This document shows, in pieces, positions 26,466 to 40,589 of a stretch of DNA of 64,000 nucleotides. The notes below the pieces were generated by a model that had not been told where the DNA came from, searched no databases, and saw only the letters and a list, made by a program, of their open reading frames with translations. The stretch is from Lacrimispora xylanolytica (GTDB taxonomy: Bacteria > Bacillota > Clostridia > Lachnospirales > Lachnospiraceae). Made by a program: the position numbers and the translations under genes. The stretch is taken from contig NZ_CP113524.1 in the NCBI RefSeq assembly GCF_026723765.1, positions 3,519,001 through 3,583,000 on the forward strand, in the 5' to 3' direction. Numbering within the stretch: the first letter of the stretch is position 1; the number at the start of each line of letters is the position of its first letter.

Positions 26466-27452
26466 TTATTCTGCCATAGATTTGTTGCACAAGGAACAGC
26501 TTGCACAGTCGGCTGGACTGCAGTGCATTCCCGGACGTAGAAAAGGTTCAATGGTGAATCCACAGGATTTTATGTAGTATCTATCCCCTTCAATCATCAC
26601 TTCACCGGAATCCGGGAGAAACTTTACCGGTATGCCTGATACAGTCTGAATCTCATCGTACAGGGGATGGGCCTTTACTCGAGGAGAGTATTTTTTCAGC
26701 TCCCCTTCCTCAGTCTGGACATAGATGGAATGGTCACAGGTAATTAACCCCTTTATTTCTCCAGCCTCCGTAAAGGAAAGAGAATTGCTGTCTGCATTGA
26801 TTCCATTCTGATCCGGGTCATAGGCTGTGATTCTGCCAATAGGGGTAGATACAAGAACCGGGTCTCCAGGTTCTATGGACTCCAGATTACCTGACTCGTA
26901 TAAGGACAATCCCACCTTAGTCTCCACCATTCCCATAGGTGTCTTTATGACGGCTTTTTCATTTGGAAACAGGGTGATACTTTTGATGTTTCCGTTTTCA
27001 TAAAAGCAAATGCCATTGATCATTGCTTTAAACTCTGAAAATCCCAGGTCAAAGGTCAGTGAGATGTTCCGCTCCCGCTCATCCTCTTCCGTCCAGAAGC
27101 CGCTTAGCTGTCCATCGAGAATAAATACTCTGTGAAGCTCTCCTGAAGGATAAAACTTGACCAGCTCTGCTGGAAGCTCTCCAATGGGGGTATATACCTC
27201 CTGCTGTTCTTCCAGAGCTACGCTGATGATCATTCCCTGTTTATTAAATTCCACAGACGGCTTCTTTTTTCTTCTGGCGGTTTCTGTGTAAGCAGGCACC
27301 AGCTCTCCTGCCTGGGTGACTATCATGTTTTTTTCGGAGAGATTCACTCCGGAAAGCTCTCCCTTTGGGTGACAGTAAAAGGATTCCACTCCTCCCAGAA
27401 TGCCGTAAGGAGTCTGAATGGTTTCTCTGTCCAGTACCATATAATTTTGCAT
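26466..27452 (-). CDS. Nif-operon repeat protein with four-cysteine tail, unknown function
   Basis: I do not recognise a named family. The 328-residue protein is built from degenerate units that combine a TP-x-G turn (TPYG 14, TQAG 46, TPIG 88, TPMG 171, TPIG 203, TEEG 247) with a MORN-like arm of the type F/Y-x-x-G-E/N-L/I (residues 27, 70, 101, 151, 185, 228, 280). This suggests a continuous beta-sheet repeat structure. The C-terminus carries HC-x4-C-x2-C-x2-C at 310-322, a plausible zinc or Fe-S site. There is no signal peptide. The gene has AGGAGG and is the last of the nif operon, 15 bases after the AnfO-like gene. A scaffold or metal-carrying role in nitrogenase maturation is inference only. 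Confidence 0.75.
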   Translation of the reverse strand: MQNYMVLDRETIQTPYGILGGVESFYCHPKGELSGVNLSEKNMIVTQAGELVPAYTETARRKKKPSVEFNKQGMIISVALEEQQEVYTPIGELPAELVKFYPSGELHRVFILDGQLSGFWTEEDERERNISLTFDLGFSEFKAMINGICFYENGNIKSITLFPNEKAVIKTPMGMVETKVGLSLYESGNLESIEPGDPVLVSTPIGRITAYDPDQNGINADSNSLSFTEAGEIKGLITCDHSIYVQTEEGELKKYSPRVKAHPLYDEIQTVSGIPVKFLPDSGEVMIEGDRYYIKSCGFTIEPFLRPGMHCSPADCASCSLCNKSMAE

Positions 27453-27467
27453 TGCTTACACCTCCTG

Positions 27468-28079
27468 TTAACATCGTGATTTGGTTATGGTTACATACAG
27501 CCCGCCCTCTTCTTTTCTTATCTTCTTTTCGTAGGCCGAATCCATGGAAAGCCAGGGCGGAATATGAGCACAGACCAGATGAAGCTCTAAAAAAGGAGTA
27601 TCGGAAAGAAAGGGAGCGAGTGCCTTTTTTGAGGAAATCTCCGGACACTCTTTTTGCAGCTCCAATAGATTTAAGAAATAGATTCCAGGAGTCTGGGTTT
27701 GCGCGGGTCCTGCATTCTTTACCATTTCAGACCGGATTCTCTTTTTTTCATCACTCTCTTCCAGATCGGAAAGTACGCCATCAAAGGTATCTTCATCCGC
27801 TTCCTCCGTACAGAAAATCCCATATCCTTTCCGATCAAATACAGAGTATGGAATTCCATTGATTTCCTTGCAGAGAATGGCTTTTGCTCCTTCTGCAAAA
27901 GCGGCGGTATTTTGTACCTCTTCCCTTTGCTCCTTTACGGTTGTTCCTTTTATGGGCGCAAAGGAAGCCTCCCTGGCAGGTTTCCAGCCATTTTCCTGCT
28001 TCTCATAAATTGTGACCATATTGCAATCGTAAAAAGGTGCCAGCTCTCCTTCTCTGGTATAAACTGCGATTTGATCCAT
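27468..28079 (-). CDS. AnfO-like nitrogenase accessory protein
   Basis: The 203-residue protein matches the AnfO family (PF09582) from memory of its pattern: an N-terminal IAVYTREGELAPFYDCN strand pair, a middle EINGIPYSVFDRKGYGIF, and a C-terminal PGIYFLNLLELQ followed by FLELHLVCAHIPPWL. AnfO was named from the iron-only nitrogenase cluster, where it supports nitrogen fixation in a way not well defined. Here the only visible nitrogenase is the molybdenum type, with no anfG. It lies between the PqqD-like and repeat-protein genes and has AGGAGG. Confidence 0.75.
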   Translation of the reverse strand: MDQIAVYTREGELAPFYDCNMVTIYEKQENGWKPAREASFAPIKGTTVKEQREEVQNTAAFAEGAKAILCKEINGIPYSVFDRKGYGIFCTEEADEDTFDGVLSDLEESDEKKRIRSEMVKNAGPAQTQTPGIYFLNLLELQKECPEISSKKALAPFLSDTPFLELHLVCAHIPPWLSMDSAYEKKIRKEEGGLYVTITKSRC

Positions 28080-28097: not shown

Positions 28098-28388
28098 TTA
28101 TTCCTCAATCTCAACTACATTTCCATGAATCAGCTTCGCCAGAAATTCCTCCAGCTCCAGCGTAGCTTCTTCCTCATCTAGATTTTTTTCCTCTGCTAAA
28201 AGTGAGACCAGCTCCGTTACCTTTGTTCCCCGCTCCAGGCTGTTCCAGAGAAAGATACAGGTCTCATTGACAGAAGGAAGGCCGTCTAAAGAACCGTTTT
28301 GGCTGTCTCTTTCATCGAATATACAAAATTCTCCTCCCAGCTCCTTTAATACGAAACCAGGCTTTAACCTAACTTGTTTGATTACCAT
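28098..28388 (-). CDS. PqqD-like protein in the nif operon
   Basis: The 96-residue protein has the PqqD fold pattern: an N-terminal beta hairpin (VRLKPGFVLKELGGEFCIFDE) followed by the helical part SVNETCIFLWNSLERGTKVTELV and a helix pair with EFLAKLIHGNVV. PqqD proteins are RiPP recognition elements that bring a peptide to a radical-SAM enzyme. No precursor peptide or dedicated radical-SAM maturase is adjacent; the only radical-SAM protein in the operon is the NifB domain of NifN-B. It lies one base after the GroEL-like gene. Confidence 0.8.
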   Translation of the reverse strand: MVIKQVRLKPGFVLKELGGEFCIFDERDSQNGSLDGLPSVNETCIFLWNSLERGTKVTELVSLLAEEKNLDEEEATLELEEFLAKLIHGNVVEIEE

Positions 28389-28389
28389 T

Positions 28390-29784
28390 TCAACCCCTCA
28401 GTCTTTCTACATCAATCCCGCTTTTTATCAATTCCAAATCCTCCCTGTCATAGCCTGCACTTACCATGACTGCTCCTGTTGTGAGCCACAGGTACATTAG
28501 GCTTGAGGATTTTCGTATCATTAAGGCCAGGAGCCACGCACTGATCTCCGGCTCCTTTACACTTTGATTCATCATCTGGGCCAGAATCGCTTCTGTCTCA
28601 GTCACCCATTTCTGTTTTAAGATATCTTCTTTCCTGCAAATGCCGTACTGCTCTATGGTCTGGGCATAGGCCACAGCGTATTCAAGTCTTGTCTTTTCTT
28701 CCCTGCTTTCCAAAAGAGTATTCCCCCCAGCCAATATGACTGGTGCACACATGGACAGGCCTGCAATCCGTTCTCTTAGTTTCTGTTTATCATAGTAATT
28801 GGTTTCCGGAGCGTTGATTTTATTCTGTATGGATGCGACCCGTCTGCGAATCTCTTCGGAATCCGCATCACCAGCCAGTATGGTATAGTCGCCTGTCATT
28901 GTAAGGGTCTTGGCTCTTCCAAGCATCTCCATGGTAATGTCCTTAATTTCACAGGGATATAATCCGTCAAACACTCTGGTTCCTGTTAAAGCTGCCGCAT
29001 CTTCCATAATATCTGTTTTTCTCCGCCCCAGCCCTGGCCCTTTCATGGCCCATAGGTGGAGACGGTCTTGTTTTACATTAGCAGTGAGAAGAGACAGGGC
29101 CTCCCCTTCAATCTGATCTGCGATTAAAAAGAGTTTTCTATCCCCCAGCGTTTCTAAAAGGGGATAAAGCTCCAAAAAAGATGAAAGTGTCCTGTTTATG
29201 ATGAGTACAAGAACCTCTGTCATGGTTGATGGTTCTCCCACGGAAAGAGGGCCGTCAAGACGCATCCCCCTTGTTATCTCCAGCCTTGTTTCTGCGTACA
29301 TGGATTCTTTTACAACCAGCTCACCTTCTTTACTGCCTTCCAGTACCATCTGGGCGGTTTTATCATCCCTTGTGATCTGACGGATTAAATTCACTTTGGA
29401 ATTCGTAGAGGAAAAAGCATGGGATAGGATAGCTTCTTCCAGCCTTTCTGATGAATTCCTTAAGTCTCTTGCCAGTACAATCGGGTTTTCCCCGGAGGCT
29501 GATTTTCTTTGGTAAAGGGTAAGCAGGGAAAGAATCATGGAAGCAGTTTCCTTTGTGCCGCATCCTGTAAGGGAATTGATTTCACCAATGGCGGCGGCAG
29601 CCAGACGGATTCCCTGATTAAAATAGAGGTCTTCTCCCTCCAGCTCCTTTGCCACCTGGCTGGCAGAAAAGGTATAGCTTCCTTTTACTAAAATGCCCCC
29701 GTCCAGGGAAAGGACATTGCAAAGGCACCGAATTCCATCCGCCATTTTTTCTCTTCCGTCCTGATACTTAGTCTGACGTATCAT
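28390..29784 (-). CDS. Degenerate GroEL-like protein in the nif operon
   Basis: The protein (464 aa; GroEL is about 545) aligns to chaperonin 60 along its whole length. DQIEGEALSLL (223-233) matches the apical DVEGEAL segment, KGPGLGRRKTDIMEDAAALTGTRVF (248-272) matches the KAPGFGDRR...TLTGG stretch, and the end SSLMYLWLTTGAVMVS matches the GroEL C-terminal helix. The ATP site has decayed: GDGTTTAT reads GCGTKETA (74-81), the second catalytic aspartate region (NDG) reads FSAS, and the RVEDALHAT helix reads RLEYAVAYA. The GGG nucleotide loop is missing. It is probably not an ATPase and may act as a fixed binding protein for nitrogenase subunits or assembly intermediates. It overlaps nifV-omega by 17 bases and has AGGAGG. 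Confidence 0.85.
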   Translation of the reverse strand: MIRQTKYQDGREKMADGIRCLCNVLSLDGGILVKGSYTFSASQVAKELEGEDLYFNQGIRLAAAAIGEINSLTGCGTKETASMILSLLTLYQRKSASGENPIVLARDLRNSSERLEEAILSHAFSSTNSKVNLIRQITRDDKTAQMVLEGSKEGELVVKESMYAETRLEITRGMRLDGPLSVGEPSTMTEVLVLIINRTLSSFLELYPLLETLGDRKLFLIADQIEGEALSLLTANVKQDRLHLWAMKGPGLGRRKTDIMEDAAALTGTRVFDGLYPCEIKDITMEMLGRAKTLTMTGDYTILAGDADSEEIRRRVASIQNKINAPETNYYDKQKLRERIAGLSMCAPVILAGGNTLLESREEKTRLEYAVAYAQTIEQYGICRKEDILKQKWVTETEAILAQMMNQSVKEPEISAWLLALMIRKSSSLMYLWLTTGAVMVSAGYDREDLELIKSGIDVERLRG

Positions 29785-30589
29785 CCTTTACACCTCCTGC
29801 CATGATATTTCTTAGTAAATCCTCGGCTTTTCTGATGTCCTGGCTGGTGACTCCTAAATCAAATTTCCGGTTGGCACCATGGACAAACTCGTAAAGATTA
29901 CAGTTTCCAGCACGCTCTCCTATTCCCAGTAAGGTTCCATCCACCATATCGGCCCCAGCCAGTGCCATGACCATGGAGTTGGCAACTGCCATACCAAAAT
30001 CATTATGCTCATGGACCTCCACCTGGATGCCGGTCTGTTTGATTTCCTGAATCAGGGCTCTTGCCCTTCTTGGAAATAAGACTCCTACGGTATCGGCAAG
30101 GCGTATGACCTCTACCCCCTGCTGTTTCATCAATCGGATTAAGGAAATTAAGAACGCGACATCAGCCCGGGAGGCATCTTCTAAGCCAACGGTTAAGGGA
30201 ATATTATAATCCTTTGCCACCTGAATGCATTCCATTAGTGTGTTTTCAATCCATTTTTTGTTCTTTCCTATTTTATTATATATTTGTGAGTAGGAGACAG
30301 GAGTTCCCACATGGATGAGGTCCGGTTTTTGTCTGGCGGACTCTTCGATATCTCCTGCATTCAGACGGGACCAGACGGAAACAATTGCCTGTTTTTTCTG
30401 CTTCATAATCTCACTTAAGTAATTAACGCCTTCTGTTCCGGTGTCATAGATGCCCGCTTCTATTTCATGGATTCCGATGCGGTCTAAATAAAGAGCCAGT
30501 CGGATCTTATCCGATGGAGAAAAAACGATGCCAGGGCACTGCTCCCCGTCACGAAGGGTAGTATCAACTATTTTGATTCGTCTCTTCAT
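29768..30589 (-). CDS. nifV: Homocitrate synthase, omega (catalytic-barrel) subunit
   Basis: This is the N-terminal, catalytic half of homocitrate synthase as a separate protein. VDTTLRDGEQCPG near residue 7 binds the metal and 2-oxoglutarate, and VEVHEHNDFGMAVAN near 195 supplies the metal-binding histidines. The enzyme condenses acetyl-CoA with 2-oxoglutarate to homocitrate, the organic ligand of FeMo-cofactor. The division into nifV-omega and nifV-alpha is known from Clostridium pasteurianum. The start is the ATG at 30589, in 26-base overlap with nifV-alpha; a GTG at 30598 is possible. Confidence 0.9.
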   Translation of the reverse strand: MKRRIKIVDTTLRDGEQCPGIVFSPSDKIRLALYLDRIGIHEIEAGIYDTGTEGVNYLSEIMKQKKQAIVSVWSRLNAGDIEESARQKPDLIHVGTPVSYSQIYNKIGKNKKWIENTLMECIQVAKDYNIPLTVGLEDASRADVAFLISLIRLMKQQGVEVIRLADTVGVLFPRRARALIQEIKQTGIQVEVHEHNDFGMAVANSMVMALAGADMVDGTLLGIGERAGNCNLYEFVHGANRKFDLGVTSQDIRKAEDLLRNIMAGGVKDDTSD

Positions 30590-31547
30590 ATTTTTCACAC
30601 TCGCTCAATATTATTAAAAACTCTTCATCGGTTACTTCTCCGCCTTTTTTCATGCTCTTTCGTTTTACCATATCTAAAAGCTGACCAACATCATATTTTC
30701 CCTCGCAGTCAAACTCTTTCAGCTTATATCGAATGGAGGTGCCGCCGGAGTGCTTTCCTAATACCACCTTTCTGGAGGCACCCACCAGCTCAGGCGCAAA
30801 GGACTCGTAATTGGATGGCTTTTTTAATACTCCATCCACGTGAATGCCGGATTCAATGTGAAATATCTTCCGGCCGATGACTGGCGTATGATCAGGAATT
30901 TCTGTCTTCGTCATTTCTTCAAATAAATCTCTAAGGAGGGTGAGCTTTTCAAAGCTGTGATTTGGCTTATACCGCTCCACCACCCTCATGGCCAGGAGCA
31001 CCTGTTCTGTTGCTGCCTTATTGCCAATGCCTGTAAAGGTGGTCATAACCGTACCATTGTGATGGTACTGGAGATAATCAGCCGCAATGGCTGATGCACA
31101 GTAGTAGGAGTCCTCCGGGTAAAGTATAGGGGATACTGCCATTAAAAGCTTCATCCCCCGCTCATAGATGTCCCGGCTTTCATAGATCAGCAGATCGTCG
31201 AGGCCGGTCAGCCTCAGCTTTTTATCCGCTTCCATATCTTCTAACCCCTTTAGCTCCCATAAGTCATTGACCTGAATGTTTCTGATGCTCCTTCCCGTAC
31301 CGTCGCAGAAGGAAGATAAGAAAAAATGAACTCCAGGATACTTCATATTTTCCGCCAGGCTGGGAAGCTCCATATAATAAACTATTCCCTCCGGCAATTC
31401 TCCCTTTAACAGGCGGTAGACTTTTGGGGATAAAACTACCCCTGAAACAGAAAGATTTCCCAGCCCTTCGATAAAACCAGAAGCCAGTTCCTTTGTCAGT
31501 GCAAAATCATCAAGCATTGTCAGTGTAGCATCAATTATCTTCATCAT
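30564..31547 (-). CDS. nifV: Homocitrate synthase, alpha subunit
   Basis: The 327-residue protein corresponds to the C-terminal half of full-length homocitrate/isopropylmalate synthases. GIGNKAATEQVLLAM, HIESGIHVDGVLKKPSNYE and VLGKHSGGTSIRYKL are the second-domain signatures. The N-terminal 160 residues are a degenerate barrel (DATLTMLDDF in place of DTTLRDGEQ) without the catalytic motif, so it needs nifV-omega for activity. It follows the ferredoxin gene in the operon and overlaps the omega gene. Confidence 0.9.
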   Translation of the reverse strand: MMKIIDATLTMLDDFALTKELASGFIEGLGNLSVSGVVLSPKVYRLLKGELPEGIVYYMELPSLAENMKYPGVHFFLSSFCDGTGRSIRNIQVNDLWELKGLEDMEADKKLRLTGLDDLLIYESRDIYERGMKLLMAVSPILYPEDSYYCASAIAADYLQYHHNGTVMTTFTGIGNKAATEQVLLAMRVVERYKPNHSFEKLTLLRDLFEEMTKTEIPDHTPVIGRKIFHIESGIHVDGVLKKPSNYESFAPELVGASRKVVLGKHSGGTSIRYKLKEFDCEGKYDVGQLLDMVKRKSMKKGGEVTDEEFLIILSECEKYEETNQNS

Positions 31548-31578: not shown

Positions 31579-31887
31579 TTAGATCATTAAATCATCGACT
31601 GGCACTCCCCCCTCAAAATGTTCCTCTACAATCCGCTCTACATCATCCTCTGACACATTGCCGTACCAGACTCCTTCTGGATAGACCACTACCACCGGTC
31701 CTTTGTCACAGATGCCGAAACATCCGGTATTATTAATGACCACGTCCCCGGTTAAATCCCTGTCTTCAATTTCCTGCATAAAGCTCTGAATGATATCCAC
31801 GCTGCCTTTTTGAAAACAATAGCCTTTTTGAGTTCCATTGATTCTGCAGCTGGTGCAGATGAATACATGATATTTTGGCTGTACCAT
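31579..31887 (-). CDS. [2Fe-2S] thioredoxin-fold ferredoxin
   Basis: This is a 102-residue thioredoxin-like [2Fe-2S] ferredoxin. Cysteines lie in CTSCRINGTQKGYC (about 11-24) and NNTGCFGICDKGP (about 53-65), the arrangement of the well-known [2Fe-2S] ferredoxin of Clostridium pasteurianum. That protein interacts with nitrogenase MoFe protein. It sits between nifN-B and nifV-alpha, so it is a nif-regulated electron or cluster carrier. Confidence 0.9.
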   Translation of the reverse strand: MVQPKYHVFICTSCRINGTQKGYCFQKGSVDIIQSFMQEIEDRDLTGDVVINNTGCFGICDKGPVVVVYPEGVWYGNVSEDDVERIVEEHFEGGVPVDDLMI

Positions 31888-31901: not shown

Positions 31902-34547
31902 TTACATGGCAGCGGCTGCCTTTTTCACCGCATCTTCGATCATGTCATAGGTATTCACTGGTTTGATTCCCAGCTCTGCCAGCTTTCTCGTTGGCTCCAT
32001 ACCGATCCGCATGGCAATGACTCCATTGCAGCCCTCTATTGCCGCCATAATTCCTTCCATCTTAGTTTCCTTTTCTCCGCATTCCTCTTCCCCCATGCAG
32101 TACTGCTCAACCTTTCTTTTTCCGGCGAAACGCACCTCTCCATTTAAGTAATCATAGAGATAAAATTCTTTTGCATGACCAAAATGAGTATCTACGATGA
32201 CTCCGCTTTTTGAAGCTACCGCAAACCGGTACTTTGTGGTAACTGTCTGGGGATTTTTTGGTTCTTCATTTAAAAATCCTTTCAGCTCTATGGATTTATC
32301 ATCGGTTAAGGTTCCCACGGCATCTGCCCGGCAATGCTGGCAGTGATACATCTGGGGCATGATCTCCTCACACTGTTTTCTGATCTCCGTCAGCTGCTTA
32401 TTGGAAATAGGCTCTACCTGTTCAAATATACTTCCCTCTACCGGAATCATCTGCATGATATTGGTAATAAAACACCCCAGGTCTTTTACCGTTTTCACTA
32501 CTTCTGCTACATGGCCGTCATTGATTCCCCTGACGGTTACAATGTTTACCTTAACAAGAACACCGCTTGCAACGAGAAGACGGATTCCTGCCAGCTGGTT
32601 TGCCACCATAATGGCCCCTGCCGCATCTCCCGTATATTCCTTTCCCATGAACCGGATGTACTGATACATCTGGCCGCTGATATGAGGGTCCACCGCATTT
32701 AAGGTCACAGTTACGTGGGAGACCGAGAGCTTAGCCAGTTCCTCCGCATAAAGGGGAAGCTTTAATCCGTTGGTGGATAAACAAAAGGTAACATGAGGAT
32801 CATGAGCCCGGATCAGTTCAAACAGGGACTTTACGCTCTCCCAGTTTTCCAGTGCTTCCCCCGGCCCGGCAATCCCTACCACCGTTAAGTTTGGCATCTT
32901 TTCCTTTACCGCCAGATAACGGCTTAGTCCTTCCTCCGGGGTGAGAATCACAGAGGTAACTCCCGGACGGCTTTCATTGGGGCAGTCAAATTTTCTGACA
33001 CAGTATTTGCACTGGACGTTGCAGGCCGGTGCCACCGGAAGATGAATCCTTGCAAACTTATGACCCTTGCAGTTATAGCAGGGATGCTCCAGAGTCTTTC
33101 GTCTCATTTCCTCTTCTCTCGTACTTATCATAGGCTCCACTTCCTTTTCCTTGGTGTCGATTAAAGTATCTTTATAATAGTCCTTGTAAAGGGCTTCCCG
33201 AAAACTTGTTTCTGTGGTATCTATCAGGTGGTTGGATATCTCATCCATGTATTCCATGGAACCTTCGTACCCCAGCATCTTTAATCTCTGGCCTCCTACG
33301 TGGTCGTGAATGGGAAATCCTCTCCGCACCAGGGGAAGTTTTAAATCCTCTGCAATCCTTCTGCCATCGGAATTCCCCACCAGTATGTTAGCCTTGCATT
33401 CAATTACCATAGCCTCAATTTCTTTAAAATCCGCTTTGTCTATAACCTTATACTCTTCCTCCAGATAAAGGTCTGCCAGCTTTTCTATCTCAGGACCGGC
33501 TTTCTTTGCCAGCTCCGGACAGGCAGTTCCAGTGGCGCACACAACAGGCAGAATTCCGGATTCACACATGAGACGGATGGTGGAATACACCATATCCGGC
33601 TCTCCAAAGACAGCGGCTCTTCCGGCAGAGTTGTATTTGTGGGAGTCGATCATGGAATCCAGATACCGGCCTCTTTCCTTTTTAAGCTCCTCAGGTATCT
33701 CCTTTCCTGAAATCTCTGAGAGGGTATTTAAAAAGGTGTCGGTATCTCTTAATCCCACAGGGAGGGGAATTCTTACAAATGGAACCCCATAGGTTTCCTG
33801 CAAATATTCTCCCACAGAATTCTTTCTTTCAAAATCGCAGATTTCCAGGGTAATTTTTGCTCCGCCCATTTTCTTTAACTCTGAGATACTGGTTCCATAA
33901 TGGGGAAGTCTTTTATACTCCTTATGGTGCTCCCCATCCAGATTTTCAGAAAGGTCAGGAAGGAGTATGGCTTCCAGTCCAAACAGCTTTAACATGGATT
34001 TTATGTATCTGGTATCCCCTGGGCTTATAGGGGCAGTCACCACATTCACCAGATTGTTTTTCCCGCTGTCCATTATAATAGAAGAAACCATGGAATAGAG
34101 TGCTCCGAAATACCCGTCGTACTGACTCCCGCCATATCCTGGGGAAGGACATGAGATGAGTGTGATATCCTTATACTCCGGATGCTCCTCTTTAAAATCA
34201 TCTAAGATTCCGGGGACATCTTCGCCAATAGTCTCTGCTAAGCATGTGGTCATGACTCCAATGATATCCGGATGGTAAAGCTCGATTAAATTATTCAGGC
34301 CTTTCTTTAAATTCTCACTTCCCCCGTAAACAGTTCCTTCCTCTGTGAGGGAAGAGGAAGCAATGTCCACAGGTTCATTGTAATGGGTCGCCATATGTCT
34401 GCGGATGTAGGTCGCACACCCCTGAGAGCCATGAAGAATGGTCATGGAATTTTTCAGACCATAAAATGCAGTCGCACTTCCCATTGGCATACACATCTTA
34501 CAGGGATTGATATTTAGATTTACCAGAGGTTCTACCTTACTTTTCAT
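31902..34547 (-). CDS. nifB: NifN-NifB fusion, FeMo-cofactor assembly
   Basis: One protein of 881 residues joins three parts. Residues 1-445 are NifN, the beta subunit of the NifEN scaffold (INPCKMC, HGSQGC, TTCLAETIGED). Residues about 485-735 are the radical-SAM NifB core with CNVQCKYC at 509-516, which makes NifB-co. Residues about 755-880 are a NifX/NafY-like carrier domain (DTHFGHAKEFYLYD). The fusion, known from C. pasteurianum, would channel NifB-co directly to the scaffold. The start at 34547 has GGCGGA six bases ahead; an ATG at 34553 is too close to it. Confidence 0.95.
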   Translation of the reverse strand: MKSKVEPLVNLNINPCKMCMPMGSATAFYGLKNSMTILHGSQGCATYIRRHMATHYNEPVDIASSSLTEEGTVYGGSENLKKGLNNLIELYHPDIIGVMTTCLAETIGEDVPGILDDFKEEHPEYKDITLISCPSPGYGGSQYDGYFGALYSMVSSIIMDSGKNNLVNVVTAPISPGDTRYIKSMLKLFGLEAILLPDLSENLDGEHHKEYKRLPHYGTSISELKKMGGAKITLEICDFERKNSVGEYLQETYGVPFVRIPLPVGLRDTDTFLNTLSEISGKEIPEELKKERGRYLDSMIDSHKYNSAGRAAVFGEPDMVYSTIRLMCESGILPVVCATGTACPELAKKAGPEIEKLADLYLEEEYKVIDKADFKEIEAMVIECKANILVGNSDGRRIAEDLKLPLVRRGFPIHDHVGGQRLKMLGYEGSMEYMDEISNHLIDTTETSFREALYKDYYKDTLIDTKEKEVEPMISTREEEMRRKTLEHPCYNCKGHKFARIHLPVAPACNVQCKYCVRKFDCPNESRPGVTSVILTPEEGLSRYLAVKEKMPNLTVVGIAGPGEALENWESVKSLFELIRAHDPHVTFCLSTNGLKLPLYAEELAKLSVSHVTVTLNAVDPHISGQMYQYIRFMGKEYTGDAAGAIMVANQLAGIRLLVASGVLVKVNIVTVRGINDGHVAEVVKTVKDLGCFITNIMQMIPVEGSIFEQVEPISNKQLTEIRKQCEEIMPQMYHCQHCRADAVGTLTDDKSIELKGFLNEEPKNPQTVTTKYRFAVASKSGVIVDTHFGHAKEFYLYDYLNGEVRFAGKRKVEQYCMGEEECGEKETKMEGIMAAIEGCNGVIAMRIGMEPTRKLAELGIKPVNTYDMIEDAVKKAAAAM

Positions 34548-34565
34548 TCTCATTCCGCCTTTCTG

Positions 34566-35921
34566 TCAGCTTACAAATTCCCATACCGAACTGTTTATGC
34601 TTTTATTGATTTCCATGGTAAAGTTGTAAACCCCCTCAAAGCCTGCCAAAGGTATTTTCCGTTCGTGATTGTGATCGCAAAAGGCGATGCCCAGCTTATA
34701 AGCCAGGGGCCGCTCTTTTACTCCCCCTACCAGGATATCAGCTCCTTTTTCCCGCATAAAGGTCTCAAGCTCCGCAGGATTTGCATCGTCAAGGATTACA
34801 GTTTCCGGCTCCACCAGGCTCTCTATGATTTCGTAATCTTCCTTTTTTCCTGTCTGAGTTCCCACAACCACGGTTTCAATTCCCATGGCTTTGAACTGGC
34901 GGATTAAAGATATGGCCTTAAAGCCTCCCCCTACATAAATTGCTGCTTTTTTTCCCTCCAGATGTTTCCGGTATTTTGCAAGGAAGCTGTTTAATTCTGC
35001 CTCTTTTTTAGAACAGAAGGCAACTGCCTTTTTCCTTGCTTCTTCATCCTTAAGTGCTTCTGCCACCCGGATCAAAGAAGCCGTGGTATCCTCGATTCCA
35101 AAGAAGCTGACCTTTAAAAATGGAATGCCAAATTCTTCCTCCATCCGATTAGCCAGATAGGTGCTGGACCCTGCACACTGGACGATGTTTAAGGAAGCTT
35201 CCGGTGCCTTTATCATCTGCTCATAGCTGCTATCCCCCGTAAACCCGGATATGACATCAATCCCCATTTCCTTAAAATAATTCTTTATAATCCACATTTC
35301 CCCTGCAAGATTAAAGTCTCCTAAGATATTGATAGCCTTTCGTTTCTTCTTCCCCTTAAAAGGAAGAATCACCTTCATAATGGCATCGCAGGCCATACGG
35401 TAGCCGGTGGATTTATTCCCGGAGAAACCGGGGGATTTTACGGGAATGACCGGAATCCCATATTGTTCCGACTTCATCCTGCAAAGAGCATCCACATCAT
35501 CTCCGATGACTCCTACGATACAGGTGGCGTAGATGAAAATCAGCTTTACCTTCTCTTCTTTTTCCATTAACTCATCCACTGCTGCCTCCAGCTTTTTGAT
35601 CCCTCCGAAAATAATATCTGTCTCCTGCAGATCCGTAGAAAAGCTGTTGCGGTAAATATCTTCTCCGCTTGTTAAGGACCCTCTGATATCCCAGGTATAG
35701 CTGGAACAGCCAATGGGACCGTGGACGATATGATAAGCATCTGTAATGGGATTTAAGACGACCCTGGCTCCGCAGTATACACAGGCCCTTTGGGACACGG
35801 AACCGGATATACTGTTGCTGTCACAGCAGATCCCGCCCTTTGGGCCGTTGCATCCCTGGGTTACGACAATAGAACTTTTTCTGGCATCTAATACATTTTT
35901 GTTGCAGCTCTCCGCTTCCAT
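34566..35921 (-). CDS. nifE: NifE, FeMo-cofactor assembly scaffold subunit
   Basis: NifE pairs with NifN and is paralogous to NifD. The cysteine motifs QRACVYCGARVV and VHGPIGCSSYTW, and IYATCIVGVIGDD, mark the P-cluster-like Fe-S site. The NifD-type homocitrate/cofactor histidine region is altered, as expected of a scaffold. The ATG at 35921 has AAGGAG eight bases ahead and gives 451 residues. It lies 18 bases before nifN-B. Confidence 0.94.
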   Translation of the reverse strand: MEAESCNKNVLDARKSSIVVTQGCNGPKGGICCDSNSISGSVSQRACVYCGARVVLNPITDAYHIVHGPIGCSSYTWDIRGSLTSGEDIYRNSFSTDLQETDIIFGGIKKLEAAVDELMEKEEKVKLIFIYATCIVGVIGDDVDALCRMKSEQYGIPVIPVKSPGFSGNKSTGYRMACDAIMKVILPFKGKKKRKAINILGDFNLAGEMWIIKNYFKEMGIDVISGFTGDSSYEQMIKAPEASLNIVQCAGSSTYLANRMEEEFGIPFLKVSFFGIEDTTASLIRVAEALKDEEARKKAVAFCSKKEAELNSFLAKYRKHLEGKKAAIYVGGGFKAISLIRQFKAMGIETVVVGTQTGKKEDYEIIESLVEPETVILDDANPAELETFMREKGADILVGGVKERPLAYKLGIAFCDHNHERKIPLAGFEGVYNFTMEINKSINSSVWEFVS

Positions 35922-35963
35922 GACCATGCTCCTTTCAAGCCTCTGACGACAAAATACCACAAT

Positions 35964-36005: not shown

Positions 36006-37379
36006 TTACATTACTACTTCAAAATCTTCATCTGCCACATCCCGGTCCAGACGGTCCATTAAGGTATCTACGATTTTTTCCACGTAGCGGATTCCTCCTG
36101 CGTAACCAACGGTGGCCTGAATGGGGTTGCCATACCGGTCAAGCACTGGAAATCCCATCCGCACCATTGGAATGTCCTCTGCCTTTGCAATCTGCTTTCC
36201 ATAGCTGGACCCAAGAAGGAGATCGACGGTCTCGTTCTTAATCAGCTGATGAAGGTAGAATAAATCGGTATCCGCCTTTACCACATACTCGCTTTCATCC
36301 ACTCCGTACTGATCCATAAGCGCTTTAATTTCCTTCTCCCACCGTTCCTTTGGTGTTCCGGTGATGATATACTTAGGACTCATACCAAGCTCCAGACACA
36401 GAGAGGTAAACGCATACACAATATCAGGATCGCCGTAGATGGCTGCCTTTTTCTTATAAACATACTGGTGGGCATCTAACATTAAATCCACCAGACGGCC
36501 TCTCTCATCCTCAAGCACAGAGGGAACCTCTTTCTTCGTAAATTTCTGAAGCTCCAGAATGTACTGATCTGTAAGCTTCACTCCCACTGGCACTGGAATG
36601 TTTGAAAATGGAACCTTATATTCCTTTTTTAAATGCTCCGACGGCTCCAGACTGCAGTAAGTTCCCATGGAAATAAGCTTTTCACAATCCCCAAGAGCTG
36701 CAATGTCCGCACCACTGGTTCCTGCGTTGCTGTGAAAATATTCATTTTTGCCATCCATGGGGTGATCCAGGATTCCATCGTGATCCGGGAAATAGATATA
36801 TTCCGCACCCATAAGACCCGCAATCCTCTTTAACTCTCTGTCATCTCCGGGATTGACCCAGCCTGGGAAAATAGCAACCTTTCCGTTTGGCTCTCCCGTT
36901 TTCTTTGTCATATATTTCATGAAACCAATCATCATATTGGCATAGCCCTGAATATGAGAGCCTTCATAAGAAGGAGTACTGGCATATAAGACGGTCTTTC
37001 CTTCCGGCACTTCCACATCGAAAATATAGGAACCAACGTCATCTCCAATGGTCTCGGAAAGACAGGTGGTATGTATGGCCATAATATCCGGATTATAGAT
37101 ATCAAAGACATTTTTCACAGCCGTAGTGATATTGCTTCTTCCGCCAAATACGGATGCTCCCTCTGTAAATGAGCTGCTGGATGCAATGGCCGGTTCTTTA
37201 AAATGTCTGCTAAGCACGGTTCTGTGATAGGAACAGCAGCCCTGAGACCCATGGGAATGGGGCATACATTTTTCTGCACCAAGGGCACAGAACATGGCAC
37301 CTACCGGTTCACAGGTCTTGCATGGGTTTATGGTCATATGGCGTTTTTCCATAATTTCTTTTGGGGTCAATTCAAGCAT
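36006..37379 (-). CDS. nifK: Nitrogenase MoFe protein beta subunit
   Basis: NifK forms the alpha2beta2 MoFe protein with NifD and shares the P-cluster. Its cysteine ligands are in NPCKTCEPVGA (about 19-29), HGSQGCCSY and HTTCLSETIGDD. It has 457 residues and lacks the long N-terminal arm of the Azotobacter protein, as in C. pasteurianum. The ATG at 37379 overlaps the nifD stop as TGATG and has AGGAGG; a longer frame to 37427 is not needed. Confidence 0.97.
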   Translation of the reverse strand: MLELTPKEIMEKRHMTINPCKTCEPVGAMFCALGAEKCMPHSHGSQGCCSYHRTVLSRHFKEPAIASSSSFTEGASVFGGRSNITTAVKNVFDIYNPDIMAIHTTCLSETIGDDVGSYIFDVEVPEGKTVLYASTPSYEGSHIQGYANMMIGFMKYMTKKTGEPNGKVAIFPGWVNPGDDRELKRIAGLMGAEYIYFPDHDGILDHPMDGKNEYFHSNAGTSGADIAALGDCEKLISMGTYCSLEPSEHLKKEYKVPFSNIPVPVGVKLTDQYILELQKFTKKEVPSVLEDERGRLVDLMLDAHQYVYKKKAAIYGDPDIVYAFTSLCLELGMSPKYIITGTPKERWEKEIKALMDQYGVDESEYVVKADTDLFYLHQLIKNETVDLLLGSSYGKQIAKAEDIPMVRMGFPVLDRYGNPIQATVGYAGGIRYVEKIVDTLMDRLDRDVADEDFEVVM

Positions 37380-38977
37380 CAGCCTACACCTCCTAACGTT
37401 CCTTCCAGCATTGGGGTTACCTTCCACGGGGGCTTAACGAGAGCCCAGGCATTGGTATACAAACTCATGGAAACATCTCTTCCAAAAATCACAGCTCCCC
37501 GAAATCCGGCATAGGGACCGGAATAATCATAGGAATGCATCTGTCTGGATACCACACCGCCGTGCTGAATGGCGTATTTATCCTTGATTCCTGAGAAGAA
37601 AATATCAGGTTTGAATTCTTCGATCAACTGGTCTGTCTCAAACATGTTATAGTCATCCACGACTACATAGCCTTTTTTCATATCCCGTATCATACCATCA
37701 TAGGTGTCAAGCTCTACTCCTGACTTTCTCATGGTATCCATTACTTCTTCCGAGTAACGGTCCTCAAAGCCTGGTTCACGCTCTACCGAAATCTCTTCGA
37801 TATTTTTGGAATCTGCATCTGCCTTTATCAGGGGAATGACTTCACGTCCTTCGTAATCATCCCGGTGAGCGAATTCATAGCCTGCAATGGTGGTTTCCAT
37901 ACCAAAATCCCTTAAAAGCATCTGGTAATGATGGGAACGGGAGCCTCCTACAAAGATACCGGCGGTCTTTCCCTTTAATTTGGATTTGTAATATTCCATA
38001 TCCTCATTGATTTCTGCCAGTTCCTCTGCAATGACTTCCTCTGTCCTCTGTGTAAGCTCCGGGTCATTAAAATAGGTGGCAATCATTCGCAGGGATTTAC
38101 AGGTCGACCCCACTCCGATAAAGTTTACCTTAATCCAGTCCACACCGTATTTGGTCTTCATCATCTCTGCTATGTAATTGATGGACCGATGGCACATGAC
38201 CAGGTTTAAATCTGCCAGATGGGAATTTTTAATGGTCTCATAGGAACCGTCACCAGTAAAGACCGAAACCACCTCATAGCCGATTTTCTTTAAGATACGT
38301 TCCTGCTCCCAGCCATCACCGCCAATGTTATATTCCCCAAGCAGGTTTACACTGTATTTGCCCTTTGGCGCTTCTTCCCCTTTTCCAATGACATAGCGCA
38401 TCAGGCCGTTATTTGCAATGTGGTGTCCTGCGGACTGGGAAACTCCCTTATAACCCTCGCAGGAATATCCGATTGCAGTGATTCCATACTTTTCTTCCAC
38501 CCGTCTTGCCACGGCCTGCACATCATCACCAATCAGACCAATGGGACAGGTAGAGCAGATAAAGATACACTTGGGGTTAAAAAGCTTCATGATCTCGTCA
38601 ATTCCCTCTTCCAGCTTTTTCTCTCCCCCAAACACGATATCAGATGGTCTCATATCCGTACAAAAAGAATACGGTACAAAATTTGGCTCTCCTTCATAGG
38701 AAGGCTTTGCCTTGTTTCTTCTGGTAGACCAGGAATAAAATGCACAGCCAATGGGTCCGTGGGTAATGACCACAGAGTCTTTCATGGGTCCTACCACAAC
38801 GCCCTTACATCCGGCATAACAGCATCCTCTAGCTGTAATAATTCCTGGTATTGCCCTGGTATTGGCAGCGATTTCATCTGGCTTCTCTGCAAATTCCAGC
38901 TGCGTAATGTGACTCTTTCGATTCTTAAATACTCTGGATGAATATTTATCCAGCAATATATCTCGTTCTTTTGCCAT
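37379..38977 (-). CDS. nifD: Nitrogenase MoFe protein alpha subunit
   Basis: NifD binds FeMo-cofactor and half of the P-cluster. P-cluster cysteines are in GCCYAGCKGV (51-60) and HGPIGC (73-78). Cofactor-site residues are visible in SQSAGHHIAN, the ligand cysteine in GSTCKSLR, the arginine in VGGSRSHHYQ and the ligand histidine in RQMHSYDYSGPYAGFRG. The protein has 532 residues and carries the roughly 50-residue clostridial insertion before the cofactor histidine. Compared with the Azotobacter pattern, SWDYSGPYHG reads SYDYSGPYAG. I start at the ATG at 38977 with AGGAGG eight bases ahead. Confidence 0.97.
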   Translation of the reverse strand: MAKERDILLDKYSSRVFKNRKSHITQLEFAEKPDEIAANTRAIPGIITARGCCYAGCKGVVVGPMKDSVVITHGPIGCAFYSWSTRRNKAKPSYEGEPNFVPYSFCTDMRPSDIVFGGEKKLEEGIDEIMKLFNPKCIFICSTCPIGLIGDDVQAVARRVEEKYGITAIGYSCEGYKGVSQSAGHHIANNGLMRYVIGKGEEAPKGKYSVNLLGEYNIGGDGWEQERILKKIGYEVVSVFTGDGSYETIKNSHLADLNLVMCHRSINYIAEMMKTKYGVDWIKVNFIGVGSTCKSLRMIATYFNDPELTQRTEEVIAEELAEINEDMEYYKSKLKGKTAGIFVGGSRSHHYQMLLRDFGMETTIAGYEFAHRDDYEGREVIPLIKADADSKNIEEISVEREPGFEDRYSEEVMDTMRKSGVELDTYDGMIRDMKKGYVVVDDYNMFETDQLIEEFKPDIFFSGIKDKYAIQHGGVVSRQMHSYDYSGPYAGFRGAVIFGRDVSMSLYTNAWALVKPPWKVTPMLEGTLGGVG

Positions 38978-38992
38978 TGCCTTCACCTCCTG

Positions 38993-39376
38993 TCAAAAAG
39001 CATCCCTGGTGTGCTCGCCGCTTCTTACGGTATACGCCTCGTATATGGGGAGCACAAATATTTTTCCATCCCCTGGATTTCCTGTCTGGTTTGTCTTAAT
39101 AAGGATATTTACCACATCCTCTACCTGCTCATCTTCCACAATCAGAGTGATCAGCCGCTTTGGAATCCACCGAAAGGACTCTGTCAAATGTTCTCCCTGG
39201 GAAGATAAGGGAAGCTCTCCGCTTTCTATGACCAGACTGATAAGCTCCGGATCAATCCGTTTCTTTCCTCTGCCAAGCACCGACCGGCAGGTAAAAGCCG
39301 GAAAACCGCCTTCTGCCAAGGCTTTTTTGGTGGGATTGATTTTATTGACCCGGATAAATGCCATTACCTCTTTCAT
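38993..39376 (-). CDS. nifI2: NifI2, nitrogenase-linked PII protein
   Basis: This PII-family protein is of the NifI2 type and is located between nifI1 and nifD. With NifI1 it blocks electron transfer to the MoFe protein when ammonium is available, relieved by 2-oxoglutarate. The C-terminal signature PGDGKIFVLPIYEAYTVRSGE is clear, and the T-loop is longer than in NifI1 (KKRIDPELISLVIESGELP). The start at 39376 has AAAGGA in front and gives 127 residues. Confidence 0.93.
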   Translation of the reverse strand: MKEVMAFIRVNKINPTKKALAEGGFPAFTCRSVLGRGKKRIDPELISLVIESGELPLSSQGEHLTESFRWIPKRLITLIVEDEQVEDVVNILIKTNQTGNPGDGKIFVLPIYEAYTVRSGEHTRDAF

Positions 39377-39404
39377 AATAATCATTCCTTTCTTAAAAGC
39401 CCTT

Positions 39405-39728
39405 TTACAGTCCTTTTTTGCCTGTGCTGACGGTATAAGCCTCTTCAATGGGTGATATAAAGATCCGGCCGTCTCCGTAATTACCCTCGCCGGTTCTGGC
39501 TGTTCTTAAAATCACCTTTACCAGGTCATCCTTATCTTCATCATTGCAGAAGAATAACAGCATTTCCTTTGGGATCTCATCATAGTGAATTTCTCCTACT
39601 GTGATTCCCTTTTGCTTTCCACGTCCATAAACGTCCATTTTGGTCACTGCCTGGAATCCTGCTTCTGCTGCCTCTTTCATTACGTGATCCGCCTTCTCCG
39701 GCCGGACGATCGCTCTCACCAATACCAT
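39405..39728 (-). CDS. nifI1: NifI1, nitrogenase-linked PII protein
   Basis: This 107-residue PII-family protein directly follows nifH. It has the C-terminal motif NYGDGRIFISPIEEAYTVSTG and the T-loop region VYGRGKQKGITVGEIHYDEIPKE. The pair nifI1-nifI2 between nifH and nifD is the arrangement known from methanogens and clostridia and provides post-translational switch-off of nitrogenase. Confidence 0.94.
   Translation of the reverse strand: MVLVRAIVRPEKADHVMKEAAEAGFQAVTKMDVYGRGKQKGITVGEIHYDEIPKEMLLFFCNDEDKDDLVKVILRTARTGEGNYGDGRIFISPIEEAYTVSTGKKGL

Positions 39729-39752: not shown

Positions 39753-40589
<837 letters not shown>

Follow-up and report, generated by a model that had tools for sequence, protein, structure and literature searches.

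A 64,000 nt stretch of the Lacrimispora xylanolytica genome (NZ_CP113524.1, positions 3,519,001 to 3,583,000; the whole stretch is called the window below) carries a gene for a GroEL-derived pseudo-chaperonin at 28390..29784 on the minus strand, where an intact open reading frame (ORF) with an ATG start encodes 464 amino acids (aa). The product is a GroEL paralogue by homology and predicted fold. Judged from its residues it almost certainly lacks the canonical ATPase, and we are just as confident that the gene is a maintained part of a nif operon. Loss of the ATPase site together with clear maintenance suggests a chaperone turned dedicated binding scaffold. The reading favoured here, to which we give a probability of about one half, is that the nif operon acquired the pseudo-chaperonin, which now scaffolds or holds a Nif protein independently of ATP.

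Six NCBIfam GroEL models match the protein (E 7e-49 to 2e-35), all under their curated cut-offs, and solved GroEL structures match at E ~1e-39, the best match spanning residues 38–382; Pfam PF00118 was not reported at E<=1. Structure prediction gives a three-domain GroEL fold, as the original prediction of an ATPase-dead GroEL-like protein had anticipated, with an apical domain at about residues 171–347 that keeps helices H and I and a C-terminal strand region of low confidence. The host genome (4.5 Mb, single contig) also encodes a normal GroEL of 539 aa, with an ORF upstream that we read as GroES-like. The pseudo-chaperonin is thus 75 residues shorter, close to the 80 or so first estimated. 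Alignment to chaperonin throughout had also been claimed; homology does extend over the body, but residues 383–415 stand in place of a longer GroEL stretch and the last 21 residues are a tail seen in no GroEL compared.

Residues were compared in an alignment of 18 family members with 27 GroELs. Asp52, Asp87 and Asp398, which we take under this numbering to be the catalytic/Mg aspartates of GroEL, are present in 27/27 GroELs and absent from 18/18 family members, which bears out the predicted loss of all three. The first position is occupied by Ser (n=13) or Ala (n=5), the second by Cys in 18/18 and the third by Ser (n=10), Tyr (n=6) or Cys (n=2). In the window's protein GDGTTT has become GCGTKE and R(V/M)ED has become RLEY; both changes were as described, as was loss of the GGG nucleotide loop, around which the alignment is less certain. 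The LGPKG loop is not retained either, Pro33 and Lys34 being deleted in the family. Most residues at the GroES/client-contact positions (presumably 199, 203, 204, 234, 237, 259, 263 and 264) are gone. Tyr199 is replaced in all 18 members (Leu 17, Pro 1), positions 203 and 204 are deleted, and the GroEL residue is kept in 2/18 at position 234 (Tyr in 16, Leu in 2), 0/18 at position 263 (T, N, S, A, E or R) and 2/18 at position 264; Leu237 is retained in 18/18 and Leu259 in 16/18.

The stem loop is short by ~10 residues relative to GroEL, a loss that would fit a protein not forming a normal ring. This bears on the idea that the protein modifies the cell's own GroEL, joining or capping its rings during nitrogen fixation and steering them to Nif clients. 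The normal GroEL kept in the cell, its upstream GroES-like ORF and the retained body fold all speak for such a role, yet the shortened stem loop and the low-confidence C-terminal strand region argue against docking in a GroEL ring, and the GroES-contact residues are mostly missing; we consider it unlikely.

Two cysteines, Cys22 and Cys75, are invariant across the 18 members, and the Cys75 codon (29560..29562, minus strand) stands in the place of Asp87, a metal-binding residue in GroEL. Next to genes that make the nitrogenase cofactor, this could be read as a nucleotide pocket rebuilt into a thiol or metal site that handles a metal or Fe-S intermediate in cofactor assembly. With just two invariant cysteines in this setting and no known metal motif, we hold that reading to be highly improbable.

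The last 21 residues (444–464; 28390..28455 with the stop codon, minus strand) are the most conserved stretch of the protein, with 14/21 invariant, and this tail is absent from all GroELs compared. The predicted local distance difference test score (pLDDT) is mostly low here, falling below 50 at residues 438–445, 454–457 and 459–464. A tail that is conserved and modelled with low confidence might be what is expected of a partner-binding tail.

The gene is maintained under purifying selection. Ratios of non-synonymous to synonymous substitution (dN/dS) are 0.127 and 0.141 against the loci L049 and L050, above most of the other operon genes (0.02–0.17) and far below 1; the NifK comparison with L050 (dN 2.195, no dS) was excluded as an alignment artefact. 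The catalytic residues are lost and the gene is, like AnfO, one of the faster-evolving members of the operon, which might point to a functionless, decaying remnant of a GroEL linked to nif. Against this stand a frame open in 18/18 genomes, a dN/dS of ~0.13, 118 gap-free invariant columns in the family alignment and the almost invariant tail, so that functionless decay is barely plausible. A pseudogene reading was rejected on the open frames, conserved columns and purifying selection.

Placement inside a nif operon also stood: the gene belongs to a one-strand run of 14 genes, from nifH to a MORN-like gene, with intergenic gaps of -49 to +45 bases. It overlaps nifV-alpha by 17 bases, and 1 base separates its end from a PqqD-like gene. 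Within the genus, 18/25 genomes carry the gene at E<=1e-50, none with internal stops; in L045/L062 the match starts at residue 12. Presence of the gene follows nif here: the 18 gene-positive genomes are the same 18 that have NifK and the 7 gene-negative genomes (one only 67 % complete) the same 7 that lack it. By title, there are 16 true named loci: Lacrimispora (7), Clostridium sp. (4), [Clostridium] aerotolerans (1), Hungatella sp. (1) and a Paenibacillaceae metagenome-assembled genome (MAG) (3). The closest named relative is Clostridium sp. 12(A), with a protein 99 % identical. Gene order is kept in these 16 loci, some of which end at a contig edge, and in G404 (L123).

Outside the genus, genome G045 holds a GroEL-like gene (L203:2830-4389, minus strand) with one in-frame TGA, which may reflect decay, sequencing error or a recoded codon. 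Its product lacks Asp52 and Asp398 and keeps Asp87 and GGG, and its end matches the tail model at E 1e-13, against 0.95 for the next best of a 48-protein set. The gene follows a homologue of a 175-aa ORF found in G300 (44 % identical) and precedes a PqqD-like gene whose protein is 43 % identical to the window's. In G300, a 537-aa Cpn60 paralogue (L138:3662-5275) lies behind nifV-alpha, AnfO-like, MORN-like and the 175-aa ORF; all three aspartates and GGG are present, the family tail is absent, and another GroEL is encoded elsewhere in the genome. The 175-aa ORF family (L138:5301-5828 and L203:4400-4867, both minus strand) directly precedes the GroEL paralogue in both genomes; it has no Pfam match at E<=0.1 and no match in G000, G404, G170 or G038.

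Trees join the G045 relative to the window's family with support of 100/95, or 99/98 once the tails and four long rows are left out, and attraction of long branches is a possible cause of this grouping. A single clade of the G300 paralogue and the window's family is not rejected (approximately unbiased test, p 0.458). The place of the family among GroELs is not settled because a very long stem leads to it (6.65 changes per column in one tree, 2.27 in another with other rows). All trees omit L003 (a near copy) and L163 (a fragment), and the 100/95 tree (stem 2.27) also omits nine more rows and the duplicates L204 and L205. Two histories are conceivable, and the data do not decide between them. 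A GroEL paralogue adjoining a PqqD-like gene may have pre-existed in Lachnospiraceae and later been fixed in nif of the window's genus; or the tie to nif came first, after which nif disappeared from G045 and the gene is now going the same way.

The adjacency in G045 also raises the possibility that the GroEL-like and PqqD-like proteins came to nif from another pathway and act as a pair in peptide binding or regulation, the chaperone role having been given up. The two genes adjoin in 17/18 genus genomes and again in L203, where NifK was not found, and a PqqD-like gene lies beside nifH in locus L145 too. In L063 the GroEL-like gene has no adjoining PqqD-like gene, and the in-frame stop in L203 means that this copy may be decaying. 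Such a pair is possible but doubtful.

Wider searches addressed the spread of the form. NifK, searched at E<=1e-90, was found in 26/371 class-sample and 13/348 family-sample genomes; each count includes two of the window's species, leaving 24 further class-sample and 11 further family-sample genomes outside the genus. Around each of these 35 NifK genes 14–20 kb was examined, some regions ending at a contig edge. The family model had no match in 24/24 class nif loci, and in 1/11 family nif loci it found a chaperonin, that of L138, which is not of the ATPase-dead form. At order level, A1 at E<=1e-60 matched 9/392 genomes, 4 of them in the genus; the other 5 matches (540–568-aa frames at 205–211 bits) are read as ordinary GroELs from length and score, and a very diverged copy could be missed at this level because GroELs score ~190–210 bits with A1. 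In 391 class genomes the tail model matched only the window's species and, weakly and falsely, L072, an ORF that we read as glycosyltransferase-like. A 28 % match in a Zoogloeaceae MAG (L064) was likewise discarded; it lies beside an ORF read as GroES-like and is therefore taken as an ordinary GroEL truncated where the contig stops. No relative was found in viral_contigs.

Wide occurrence of the form without nif would have counted against the original prediction. In a sample of 397 family genomes, at least two matches were present in 32 that do not belong to the window's species, and all 32 were re-searched with PF00118. Thirteen diverged paralogues (L162, L194–L205) were read closely, and the tail model was run on the other additional copies and fragments. 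Over 83 chaperonin loci the tail model gave E 6.6e-12 in L203 and 0.41 or worse elsewhere; wide occurrence without nif was therefore not seen as far as searched, G045 (84 % complete) being the one genome among these loci with the tail, and the tail model itself having been run on these loci and not family-wide. The paralogues without Asp52 or Asp398 include L194, L195, L199, L200, L201, L203 and L204, and every full-length one of the 13 retains Asp87 and GGG. So far, then, the form comprises one genus and one broken relative. Separately, L195–L202 and L204 are diverged full-length GroEL paralogues of other Lachnospiraceae, several without Asp52 or Asp398, and near 7/9 of these loci lies an ORF that we read as short-chain-dehydrogenase-like. 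In G038 (L163) a partial Cpn60 match (364–475 of PF00118) lies within an ORF of 279 aa, on a contig other than that of nifK.

A course of events consistent with these observations can be proposed. A GroEL paralogue would have been captured by the nif operon in an ancestor of the Lacrimispora group. Its ATPase residues, the majority of its GroES/client contacts and a segment of the ring-forming stem loop would then have disappeared, while the body with its three domains and the apical helices H and I stayed. Such a protein would no longer run a folding cycle or form a normal GroEL ring; it may use the apical groove and the conserved tail for binding, and act without ATP as scaffold or holdase of a Nif protein. 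We infer the step to action on Nif proteins from operon membership, and for a client-binding Nif scaffold as such we would put the chances slightly short of even. The original interpretation is partly supported: the catalytically depleted paralogue, the chaperonin fold, purifying selection and the tie to nif in the genus bear it out, and a role as assembly factor, or a hold on NifDK or NifH, is conjecture so far. A more specific version, in which the emptied nucleotide pocket carries the thiol pair Cys22/Cys75, the tail is a docking site for a partner, for instance the PqqD-like protein, and a Nif polypeptide is presented during cofactor loading, is improbable.

Several points weigh against a scaffold dedicated to nif. 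This GroEL-like form occurs in 0/35 nif loci outside the genus, so that it does not accompany nif in general, and co-occurrence within the genus is largely one inheritance rather than 18 independent events. Hydrophobic contact residues have been lost from the apical domain, which weakens generic client binding. Lastly, NifK, the one nif gene looked for in G045 (84 % complete), had no match there at E<=0.001, and a tail-bearing relative in a genome without a NifK match means that the module may have arisen, or may act, outside nif.

The remaining genes of the run, all on the minus strand, are in order nifH (39753..40571), the P-II genes nifI1 (39405..39728) and nifI2 (38993..39448), nifD (37379..38986), nifK (36006..37427), nifE (34566..35960), a NifN–NifB fusion of 883 aa (31902..34553), a [2Fe-2S] thioredoxin-like ferredoxin of 102 aa (31579..31887; Pfam), nifV-omega (30564..31547) and nifV-alpha (29768..30598), followed after the pseudo-chaperonin gene by genes for the PqqD-like (28098..28388; 96 aa, PF05402), AnfO-like (27468..28079; 203 aa) and MORN_2-like (26466..27452; 328 aa) proteins. 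nifH, the nifI genes and the fusion rest on profile matches and the nifV genes on Pfam and NCBIfam; nifD, nifK and nifE all match PF00148, and their names are assigned on our assumption of the usual gene order. The AnfO-like protein is over the cut-off for PF09582 and below that for TIGR02940, and the MORN_2-like protein is below the Pfam cut-off; the latter carries a C-terminal Cx4CxxCxxC invariant in 16 sequences, and its predicted model is poor (pLDDT 57.5). Homologues of the MORN-like and of the AnfO-like protein each occur in 7/11 other Lachnospiraceae nif loci. PqqD-like genes recur near nif, beside the pseudo-chaperonin gene in the window's genus and at L145:19536-19862 (plus strand), divergent to nifH in G170; another (L203:2480-2791, minus strand) adjoins the GroEL-like relative in G045.

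To our knowledge, why GroEL matters for nitrogenase maturation is not well explained. If the scaffold reading is true, a chaperonin body without ATP, fixed in a nif operon, would separate a binding role from the folding cycle, and the protein may be relevant to the transfer of nitrogenase into new hosts. Among bacteria it would exemplify a chaperonin that has apparently turned into a dedicated scaffold, and related genomes may show intermediate states. The case is narrow, but a clean, conserved and testable family merits a specialist's attention. Indirect support comes from the title of Ribbe and Burgess 2001 (via PMC11168457), by which the final assembly of the MoFe protein requires GroEL. 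The excerpted text of the Clostridium indolis genome paper lists nif genes in the C. saccharolyticum species group and states that fixation had not been demonstrated in that group at that time; the word 'GroEL' does not occur in that excerpt (PMC4149025). No paper on this gene was among the matches listed for the open-licence literature.

Among known systems, chlamydial GroEL2 and GroEL3 are likewise diverged chaperonin paralogues, of a different lineage; their models give 16.9 and 52.1 bits with the window's protein (E 4e-14 for GroEL3) and do not reach the cut-off of 600. Vertebrate BBS/MKKS chaperonin-like proteins, in the excerpted source, are similar in being diverged paralogues and different in lineage, and we know of no nif link for either group. 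Rhizobial nif-regulated groESL, such as a Bradyrhizobium groESL under NifA, is reportedly canonical, with GroES; it too ties a chaperonin paralogue to nitrogen fixation, whereas the window's gene lacks the ATPase residues and sits inside the nif operon. The Cpn60 paralogue of G300 likewise belongs to a nif cluster of Lachnospiraceae, where AnfO-like and MORN-like genes precede it, and differs in its 537 aa, its three aspartates and GGG, and its lack of such a tail. With the group I chaperonin GroEL/Cpn60 itself the window's family shares sequence homology and a predicted three-domain fold; missing from it are the catalytic aspartates, both nucleotide loops (GPKG and GGG), the majority of the GroES/client residues and a segment of the stem loop, and it carries a different, conserved tail.
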